Positions 5,053-7,437 of a stretch of 23,624 bases of DNA are shown here, in pieces (position 1 is the first letter of the stretch; each line of letters starts with the position of its first letter). Origin of the DNA: Pseudovirgaria hyperparasitica (taxonomy: Eukaryota > Ascomycota > Dothideomycetes > Acrospermales > Acrospermaceae); the NCBI RefSeq assembly GCF_010093815.1, contig NW_022985586.1:1-23624 (forward strand). Direction: 5' to 3'. The position numbers and the translations under genes are program-made. The notes beneath the pieces were generated by a model that saw only the letters and a program-made list of their open reading frames with translations, was not told the DNA's origin and made no database searches.

Positions 5053-7437
5053 TCATGCTGCGCTCAAAGCCCTCAACGCATGTAGTCTCTCTTGCATGAA
5101 TGCTGCGGGCCCAGGAGCACCTCTCGTGGATCTCTTGTCTGTCTGTCTCTTCCGCTTACGATTTGGAGACAGTTCTTCAAGGGGAGACCTCGCCTCGAGG
5201 ACGAGCGCCCGCTCAAAGTCAATGACAACCACTTTTCGCTCAGCTGATTTCCACAGGAGGTTTCGCAGCGTGAGATCGCGATGTAGCACCCAATGTTCAT
5301 GGATAGAGCCGATTGCACGTTCGACTTGTTTGTGGATTTCGGCCAAGTGATTCGATAGGATCCCTCTCGAGACCTTCACGCCACCAAAGCTCATGAACAT
5401 CATATGTGTCAGCTCCGCGATGCCGTCATATTCATAAGGCTGCGTGAGATCGATGTTCCCCAGGTGTACCGGCACATGTTTTCCTTGGATCGAGCGCAAG
5501 CAGTCGTAGACGGCAGCCTCATGTTTGAGATGGCAGATAAATTCAGCCGGCGTACCCTTGGCCGCAACAGTATATCCATGCGAGGTGAGGCAGATACGGA
5601 ACAGGACACCGCGGGAGCCATGGATACGCAGGCAATCAACGTCATGGTCCAGATCCCTGGAAAGCTGCTCGTGCATGAGACGGAGAAAGGCTGATCGGTC
5701 GATCTGGTGAGTGTGCCTTCCATGTGCCTTGACATTGGGACATTTGTGGTCCAGGGGCCCACGCACGAGGAGGCCTCGCAGACACTCCGAGGTGCAGTAC
5801 TGCCTCTCCTTGCCTTGGTTTGAGGCACCAGTCCGTCCCGCTGTCGTTTTGGTCCTGGACGATCTCTCTTGATTCGCTCGTCGCGATGCATGTCGCCTCG
5901 TAGCAGGCGCAGGCGTGTCTGGGTCCGGTTCGGTGTCGCTACTGCTCCGATCATGTGGCTGTGGAGAACTACAAGACGTCGAGGGACGTGATGGTCGTGG
6001 TCGAAGCTGGATCGGGCAGTCTCTGAGCTGGGTCGTGCGTGAGGGGGGTACGTAGTCTGACGTGAGGCGTTCTGGGGTGGGCACTTGGTCGAGCAGCTCC
6101 TCATACGTGATCTCCCAGGGCACAAGCAAGCTACGCGCATCGCTCTTCCACTTCTGACTCCGTGGCGTACTTTGAATCGCCATCAACGTCAACGCTAACA
6201 TACGTCCAACAGCAGTCATGTGCAGGCAGTTGGGCTGGTCCAGTGCTGGCGTCCAGCCAGTTTCCAGACCAACATCGTGTTTGGGCACCGAGAGGTGATA
6301 GTATACAGTCCTGGGATCGTCAAGGACCCGAAGAAAGATGTAGGCTTCGCCTGTGCAGACGCAACCGTACTCCACTCCAATCTTGATCATGTAGGAAAAT
6401 GCCTGGACGATGATTGCGGCGACCAATCGTTGCAACTTCGCCTCCACGCCTTCGTTATCCTTCACCTGCACTACCTCATCTAGGTCCATCTCTTGCAAAC
6501 CTGCGCAGATGCATGCCAGTGAAACCTTATGCGGCGCTTTGTACTCAATGATGTACGCCGGTTGACGGTATGATTGATCACCCGAATCGACGTGGTAGAC
6601 GCAGAATTGATCGGCACGGGGCCGGGAAGATTTTGGTCCTACTGCGGCGCTCTGTGCTGGAGGGGTGGGATGCTGCAGGGATTGGAGCCTGGCCGAACGA
6701 CGTGGTGCGCCAGAGATATCCATAGCCTGAACAGCCTCTTCAATCTGACTGTCCGAGCTTAGAGTGTTTCCATGATTTTCAAAAGTCACCGAGCCTCTGA
6801 GGCCGAAGGACTTTCGAAGCTCGTTCTCATCCGTGATAGCAGTGACGACCTCAGAGATAGGATTCTCCACTGTCAAACGCTGGAAGAAAGTGAGGTCTGG
6901 CTCCGAGCTGCAGAGTCTCGGGCCCACGGATTGACCCAGCTCTTCTAGTGTGTTTATGGAGGTGAACTGACGCGTCTGAAAGAAGTTCGAGTCTTGTAGC
7001 TTGGCCCAGATGAATTCCTGCTGCTCCTCGAAGTCCAGCCAGTGACGTATATAGCGTGGACGTAATTTGCGCTGGGCATTGTCAGGATTGCCTTGAGTGG
7101 AACGTGAGGCATCGGTTTGGACAGTGAACCCCAGGGAGAGATGGGTGTGACAAGTATGGAGATATTCGGAGAGTGTAGTTTTTCGTGTTCGTTCTTCTAT
7201 ATTGTTGCGCGCACGTTCTGCCTCCTCTTGGGCGCGTTCTGCCTCCTCTTGGGCGCGTTCTGCTTCCTCTTGGGCGCGTTCTGCCTCCTTACGTCGCCGT
7301 TGCTCTTCTTCACGTCGCCGTTGCTCTTCTTCGCGTCGCCGTTGCTCTTCTTCGCGTCGCCGTTGCTCCTGAAAGTAGAGCTCTTTGTAGTCAGGTTCGT
7401 CCATGTCTGCTGTGGAATCTGTACACAGGCTCGCCAT
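5053..7437 (-). CDS. Spok-like protein: coiled coil, nuclease and kinase-like domains (candidate spore-killer meiotic driver)
   Basis: One uninterrupted 794-codon frame, with the first ATG after an in-frame TAG. Residues 24-78 are a charged heptad coiled coil in two 7-residue repeat types (RRREEEQ, then AERAQEE). Residues 88-450 contain a conserved opening (TTLSEYLHTCHTHL) and a PD-(D/E)XK-type nuclease core: an acidic strand near 276 and IIEYKAPHK with Glu298 and Lys300. Residues 470-545 are a Ser/Pro/Arg linker. Cys548, Cys552, Cys566 and His572 form a probable zinc cluster. Residues 605-750 are kinase-like: Lys627 (AAKG), Glu640, HRDLTLRNLL with Asp721 and Asn726, and DFE (Asp740) in place of DFG. 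This order matches the Podospora Spok family, in which the nuclease half is needed for killing and the kinase-like half for resistance. All key residues I can identify are present. Whether this copy drives is inference. A related non-driving nuclease-kinase protein is the alternative. Confidence 0.85.
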   Translation of the reverse strand: MASLCTDSTADMDEPDYKELYFQEQRRREEEQRRREEEQRRREEEQRRRKEAERAQEEAERAQEEAERAQEEAERARNNIEERTRKTTLSEYLHTCHTHLSLGFTVQTDASRSTQGNPDNAQRKLRPRYIRHWLDFEEQQEFIWAKLQDSNFFQTRQFTSINTLEELGQSVGPRLCSSEPDLTFFQRLTVENPISEVVTAITDENELRKSFGLRGSVTFENHGNTLSSDSQIEEAVQAMDISGAPRRSARLQSLQHPTPPAQSAAVGPKSSRPRADQFCVYHVDSGDQSYRQPAYIIEYKAPHKVSLACICAGLQEMDLDEVVQVKDNEGVEAKLQRLVAAIIVQAFSYMIKIGVEYGCVCTGEAYIFLRVLDDPRTVYYHLSVPKHDVGLETGWTPALDQPNCLHMTAVGRMLALTLMAIQSTPRSQKWKSDARSLLVPWEITYEELLDQVPTPERLTSDYVPPSRTTQLRDCPIQLRPRPSRPSTSCSSPQPHDRSSSDTEPDPDTPAPATRRHASRRANQERSSRTKTTAGRTGASNQGKERQYCTSECLRGLLVRGPLDHKCPNVKAHGRHTHQIDRSAFLRLMHEQLSRDLDHDVDCLRIHGSRGVLFRICLTSHGYTVAAKGTPAEFICHLKHEAAVYDCLRSIQGKHVPVHLGNIDLTQPYEYDGIAELTHMMFMSFGGVKVSRGILSNHLAEIHKQVERAIGSIHEHWVLHRDLTLRNLLWKSAERKVVVIDFERALVLEARSPLEELSPNRKRKRQTDKRSTRGAPGPAAFMQERLHALRALSAA
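7207..7370. repeat. 21-bp tandem repeats encoding coiled-coil heptads
   Basis: On the plus strand, about four copies of a 21-bp unit (gcgcgttctgcctcctcttgg and variants) are followed by about four copies of another 21-bp unit (acgtcgccgttgctcttcttc and variants). Each unit encodes exactly one heptad of the Spok-like protein, so gain or loss of units would change coiled-coil length without breaking the frame. Copies are nearly identical, which suggests recent expansion. Confidence 0.85.

Follow-up and report, generated by a model that had tools for sequence, protein, structure and literature searches.

The Spok-like locus of Pseudovirgaria hyperparasitica

Pseudovirgaria hyperparasitica (Dothideomycetes, Acrospermales) lives on rust fungi. 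The stretch of its DNA analysed here, referred to as the window, comprises 23,624 nucleotides of contig NW_022985586.1. On its minus strand, at 5053–7437, lies an uninterrupted frame of 794 codons plus stop (stop codon 5053–5055) for a protein resembling the Spok spore killers of Podospora, exactly where the initial annotation, which gave no strand, had placed it. Translation probably begins at M12 (MDEPDYKELY), which would give a gene at 5053–7404 and a protein of 783 amino acids, because same-species relatives begin MSEPDYKKLF (the paralogue on contig C36) and MSKQPTDYEKLY. The database twin, EJ05DRAFT_269824 (P0002), is 100% identical across 94% of the window protein. This public model has only 775 amino acids because it uses an out-of-frame ATG at 7442 as its start and omits part of the heptad repeat described below. 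False introns have been reported for Fusarium Spok annotations too (PMC12693581).

Domain organisation

An N-terminal coiled coil is followed by domain 1 with a PD-(D/E)XK-type nuclease, a Cys/His cluster and a kinase-like domain (Table 1). The heptad repeat noticed initially corresponds to a predicted 68-residue helix (residues 17–84), coded by two 21-bp tandem arrays which Tandem Repeats Finder placed at 7214–7289 (96% matches) and 7291–7368 (98%). The other motifs of the initial annotation were likewise found: the nuclease core IIEYKAPHK at residues 296–304, the C-x3-C-x13-C-x5-H cluster beginning at C548, and the kinase-like HRDLTLRNLL and DFER at 719 and 740. Its statement that all key residues are present was borne out, as every nuclease, cysteine and kinase residue tested was there. 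The linker at 466–543 was predicted to be disordered, with a predicted local distance difference test score below 50.

The C-terminal domain has both the fold and the catalytic residues of a kinase of the protein kinase or eukaryotic-like kinase type. Its nearest fold, RIO2, was tied with many other kinases, and in sequence searches of the PDB the best 60 of 147 and the best 60 of 967 matches were kinases or kinase-containing chains. Three Pfam kinase models matched the window protein, of which Kdo alone passed the cut-off, barely. PF27653 was not reported in the Pfam scan of the window protein; it is carried by P0002 and by all homologues among the matches listed, the accession being taken from precomputed annotation. 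For the part holding domain 1 and the nuclease, Foldseek by itself gave no significant match. The nuclease part showed 12% and 8% identity to the type IIG restriction enzymes BpuSI and DrdV, and match rows 2–11 were mitoribosomal chains. Type IIG enzymes carry a methyltransferase; unlike BpuSI and DrdV, the window protein has a kinase-like domain after its nuclease.

Copies and relics in the genome

Further copies were sought in one assembly of 35.03 Mb in 59 contigs. A second intact copy was found on C36, with a frame of 780 amino acids and 75% identity to the window protein. A TAG was considered as a pseudogene sign in this copy and rejected, as it precedes the copy's own start and the frame is intact. 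The gene has been duplicated repeatedly, and other copies have decayed: C39 holds a 5′-truncated copy with one stop, the C26 copy (L026:4093–5090) has lost residues 166–590, nuclease included, and has stops elsewhere, C43 retains one piece, and C25 carries a stop-ridden relic. The composite index for repeat-induced point mutation (RIP), on which all RIP-like calls are based, was +0.37 for the C25 relic and up to +1.52 in its neighbourhood, while the C36 gene gave −0.78; RIP of the window gene was rejected on its index of −0.74. Both intact copies lie on small contigs, C36 being 62.3 kb and the contig of the window gene 47.5 kb in the database. A further relative, P0004 (57% identical), had no match in the 35.03-Mb assembly; the database places it on a 9.8-kb contig.

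Selection on the two halves

Killing by SPOK3 requires the nuclease, and resistance requires the Cys/kinase part (PMC6660238). We compared constraint on the corresponding parts of the window and C36 genes by a Nei–Gojobori count (own script). Nonsynonymous (dN) and synonymous (dS) divergence were 0.149 and 0.905, a dN/dS of 0.164, and purifying selection was seen in both halves. The ratio was 0.068 in the nuclease (residues 263–465), 0.193 both in domain 1 and in the Cys/kinase part, 0.101 and 0.282 in linkers 1 and 2, and 0.388 at the C-terminus, with domain borders that were set after the motifs had been read and a coil ratio that was incomputable, its dS being saturated. Amino-acid changes told the same two parts apart (25/203 in the nuclease, 51/225 in the Cys/kinase part; Fisher p = 0.005). 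Among 3000 random family pairs the nuclease was again the most alike (0.58 vs 0.50 for the Cys/kinase part). Gene conversion as the cause of the low nuclease dN was rejected, since dS in the nuclease is 0.907.

Because its nuclease ratio is the lowest, the presumed toxin half has been kept, and not the antidote half alone. Loss of the nuclease would be expected in a gene retained for resistance alone; the window gene still has it, which shows that both halves matter. This result is compatible with drive, addiction or host function alike.

Family and phylogeny

Three homologue searches, the second and third started from more distant members and restricted regions, found 392, 788 and 47 proteins, with 120, 120 and 47 listed; a single query thus returned 788 homologues. 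The listed matches amount to 223 different proteins including the window's own, and 209 full-length rows were used. The nuclease residue set was complete in 198/209 rows, the Cys set in 203/209, the kinase set in 204/209 and all sets in 190/209; the HRD histidine was excluded from the kinase set because it varies (H in 156/186 rows, Q in 28/186). The catalytic lysine lies 45 residues from the Q of QxxxY in the window protein and in 191 of the 202 full-length rows having both. A histidine pair five residues apart (H-x4-H) is likewise shared with 190/201 rows, and the whole published pattern C-x3-C-x13-C-x5-H-x7-H occurred in 0 of the 223 proteins. By full-length homology and by both spacings, the window protein fits this large fungal family of PF27653 proteins. 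No relative turned up when viral contigs were scanned with the family alignment.

In 10/209 rows the nuclease set was broken and the kinase set complete (6 by substitution, 4 by gaps); the reverse held for 4/209, 3 of them by substitution. The substituted copies P0126, P0151, P0152, P0153, P0160 and P0172, with the kinase set intact, are possible resistance-only copies.

In a quick IQ-TREE analysis of 120 rows, P0003, which is the C36 locus as publicly modelled, came out as sister of the window copy, with P0004 next, both with support 100. FastTree on 209 rows agreed, giving the clade of window copy, C36 and P0004 support 100, with a warning of long branches meeting elsewhere in the tree. This clade lies within a set of 89 rows (support 98) comprising 38 of the 39 labelled Dothideomycete rows, 3 Lecanoromycetes, 2 Sordariomycetes and 46 unlabelled rows, the class labels having been assigned by organism name, Pseudovirgaria excepted. 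Classes were largely clustered: the 127 labelled rows required 10 label changes, against a mean of 49.3 after shuffling and a minimum possible of 4. The initial annotation had named a place among ordinary conserved kinases as grounds for refutation; the trees instead put the gene and its paralogues inside a large Spok-like family. Horizontal arrival of the window copy was rejected, its clade sitting in the mostly Dothideomycete set.

Xylaria polymorpha and Diaporthe proteins fall among the Dothideomycetes in the 209-row tree. Their identity to proteins of Corynespora and Bimuria is 89% and 86.5% (P0008, P0006, P0023 and P0029), the Xylaria polymorpha/Corynespora pair P0008 and P0023 reaching 89.3% over 766 columns. 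This crossing of classes is likely to reflect transfer; it may also be contamination.

Surroundings of the gene

Repeats and transposon remnants lie near the gene (Table 1). Directly upstream of it, a short minus-strand frame at 7787–7990 has a weak bZIP match below the cut-off. Pogo-like transposase pieces (DDE_1, weak HTH_psq) occur at 1271–2235 on the minus strand, and the stretch 600–2350 around them had no second match in the 35.03-Mb assembly. Two DDE_3 remnants of Tc1/mariner-like type, separated by about 1.5 kb, occupy 14086–16299 (minus strand) within a strongly RIP-like stretch; a related DDE_3 copy is found roughly 1 kb from the C36 gene. Farther along, 16943–17373 and 19809–20239 are the arms of a 431-nt inverted repeat with 91% complementarity, to which additional arms are related. 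Pieces of a major facilitator superfamily transporter are present at 21789–22908 on the plus strand; near them, 22963–23266 recurs inverted at 17438–17843 with 97–98% complementarity.

Table 1. Features of the window around and within the Spok-like gene
Feature	Position	Strand	Remarks
Spok-like gene	5053..7437	−	794-codon frame; probable start 7404 (M12, 783 amino acids)
N-terminal coiled coil, residues 17–84	7186..7389	−	AlphaFold2 helix, 68 residues
Domain 1 and PD-(D/E)XK-type module, residues 86–465	6043..7182	−	
PD-(D/E)XK-type core: D276, E298-x-K300, QxxxY 345–349 (Q345, Y349)	6391..6612	−	Conserved residues
IIEYKAPHK (with E298-x-K300)	6526–6552	−	Within PD-(D/E)XK-type core
Cys/His cluster C548-x3-C552-x13-C566-x5-H572-x4-H577	5707..5796	−	Conserved residues
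Kinase-like domain (about 581–745): K627, E640, HRD 719–721, N726, DFE 740–742	5203..5697	−	
Upstream flank, mosaic of dispersed repeats	7440..9400	.	At least 38 further matches: 33 on C35–C59, 5 on C26
Downstream flank	2400..5050	.	Assembly search returns only itself; weak 118-nt, 72% match beside C36 copy
RIP-like island with DDE_3 transposase pieces	12001..16500	.	Composite index 0.80–0.89

Discussion

The window gene shares much with Spok1–Spok4, the single-gene spore killers of Podospora (PMC4022471, PMC6660238, PMC9972908). The order of coil, domain 1, PD-(D/E)XK nuclease with QxxxY, Cys/His cluster and kinase is the same (PMC6660238), as are the uninterrupted frame, the heptad repeat, and the presence of decayed copies and nearby transposons. 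The catalytic D, E and K of SPOK3 and its QxxxY are matched by D276, E298, K300, Q345 and Y349, in a comparison that uses residue numbering as published; the first cysteine and the catalytic aspartate are 173 residues apart (C548–D721) against 174 (C493–D667) in SPOK3, and the kinase residues K627, E640, N726 and D740 are in place. Spok homologues are described as widespread in ascomycetes, patchy and often pseudogenes, with further ones of P. anserina near transposons (PMC4022471, PMC6660238). The FuSpok genes of Fusarium also form a Spok-like multi-copy family, often on repeat-rich or small contigs as here, and for FuSpok1 and FuSpok2 of F. poae a toxin/antidote action in yeast has been reported (PMC12693581).

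With a probability of about one half, we are dealing with an intact Spok-like element, maintained by selection, in which a single protein would serve as toxin and as its own antidote. By analogy with published Spok work, from which both this division of labour and DNA as the target are taken (SPOK1 killing acts via DNA; PMC9972908), coiled coil, domain 1 and nuclease would form the DNA-cutting toxin part, and Cys/His cluster and kinase-like domain the antidote part. The coil would dimerise the protein, and the nuclease would damage DNA in cells or spores that receive the protein without the gene. As the kinase would neutralise the nuclease only where the gene is present and expressed, nuclei losing the gene would be penalised, either by spore killing after meiosis or by vegetative addiction. 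Spore killing by this gene in P. hyperparasitica is possible by the same analogy, and less certain than the working of a toxin and antidote. The genome contains MAT1-1 alpha-box, Spo11-type and DNA-methyltransferase domains which, together with the RIP-like sequence, suggest that meiotic drive is possible in principle. No paper describing a sexual stage of P. hyperparasitica was among the matches listed in the literature searches, and those listed in PMC included no functional test of a Dothideomycete Spok-like member, the assayed Fusarium genes being unplaced relative to this branch.

Several points weigh against a plain Spok label or against this reading. The K240–Q294 distance of SPOK3 is 54 vs 45 in the window protein, and its histidines are eight residues apart (H-x7-H) vs H-x4-H here. 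No match named Podospora or Fusarium was present among the matches listed, many of them unnamed, which is why no tree with Spok1–4 or the assayed Fusarium genes was made. The 23.6-kb window (public contig 47.5 kb) contains no DUF3435 captain. No Starship was found with the gene, because the sole DUF3435 match of the assembly sits on C28 in three pieces, of which one is interrupted by a TGA; the splitting could also be due to introns. In P0145 of Penicillium decumbens, one of the four rows with a broken kinase set, the catalytic aspartate has been lost although the nuclease is kept, a combination at odds with a simple toxin and antidote unless another copy protects. Killing cannot be predicted from architecture by itself: in P. 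anserina, three Spok-like genes are found at identical loci in the two strains (PMC4022471), and four of six Fusarium homologues were without effect in yeast (PMC12693581, Table 1). Of the initially proposed Spok-like identity, then, the order of parts, the key catalytic residues and the intactness hold, while membership of the Podospora Spok clade is not supported by the comparisons made; given the two spacings unlike SPOK3, we use the label Spok-like and refrain from assigning the gene to the Spok1–4 clade. The border itself is uncertain: close (clade II) Spok homologues are described in Beauveria and Metarhizium rileyi (Vogan et al., PMC6660238), and our family matches include Beauveria and M. 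rileyi proteins (P0153, P0158, P0170, P0171; P0153 and P0158 of the H-x4-H form), possibly the same genes.

The strongest alternative, which we nevertheless consider rather unlikely, is a domesticated host gene, a nuclease-kinase that would serve the fungus by telling self from non-self, keeping foreign or mobile DNA in check, or repairing DNA. Long and strong purifying selection, strongest in the nuclease, would be expected of such a gene, and so would catalytic residues that are near-invariant over the 209 rows and a tree that mostly follows fungal classes. Lineage-specific duplication with several decayed copies fits it less well, as do upstream-flank repeats that recur mostly on small contigs and the 89% identical Xylaria and Corynespora proteins, which look like transfer (or may be contamination); moreover, the published relatives are drivers. 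It is improbable that the intact frame encodes neither toxin nor drive. The inactive Fusarium homologues and the P. anserina genes at shared loci set a precedent for such inertness, but a dN/dS of 0.164 between the intact copies, and of 0.068 in the nuclease, is unlike that of an idle gene. Still less probable is a copy retained for resistance against another killer with its nuclease out of use. Alleles of this kind have been described (Spok2 in strain A, and the laboratory-made Spok3 K240A; PMC6660238), and the 10 rows with a broken nuclease set would be natural counterparts; the window copy, however, has every nuclease residue tested, in the most constrained domain of the protein. A wrong assembly or chance frame, which the differing public gene model might suggest, is very improbable because full-length relatives exist and the codons are constrained against an intact paralogue.

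Returning to the toxin–antidote element, a wider extension is speculative, and we regard it as doubtful. The family, distinguished by Cys/His and nuclease spacings of its own, may be a second branch of single-protein killers represented in Dothideomycetes, Eurotiomycetes, lichen fungi and some Hypocreales; P. hyperparasitica would then hold two anciently diverged killers, both active, with the nuclease kept by the payoff of drive or addiction.

That Spok homologues are widespread in ascomycetes is already known; the window gene adds one candidate and a question about a whole side branch. Selection that is stronger on the nuclease than on the kinase provides a test applicable to other family members, as in a killer that is fixed and idle the nuclease should be the first part to go. 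If active, the window gene would bring the Dothideomycetes into the range of single-protein spore killers, and it would help to separate the view that Spok-like genes are mostly drivers from the view that they are mostly host genes which give rise to drivers.
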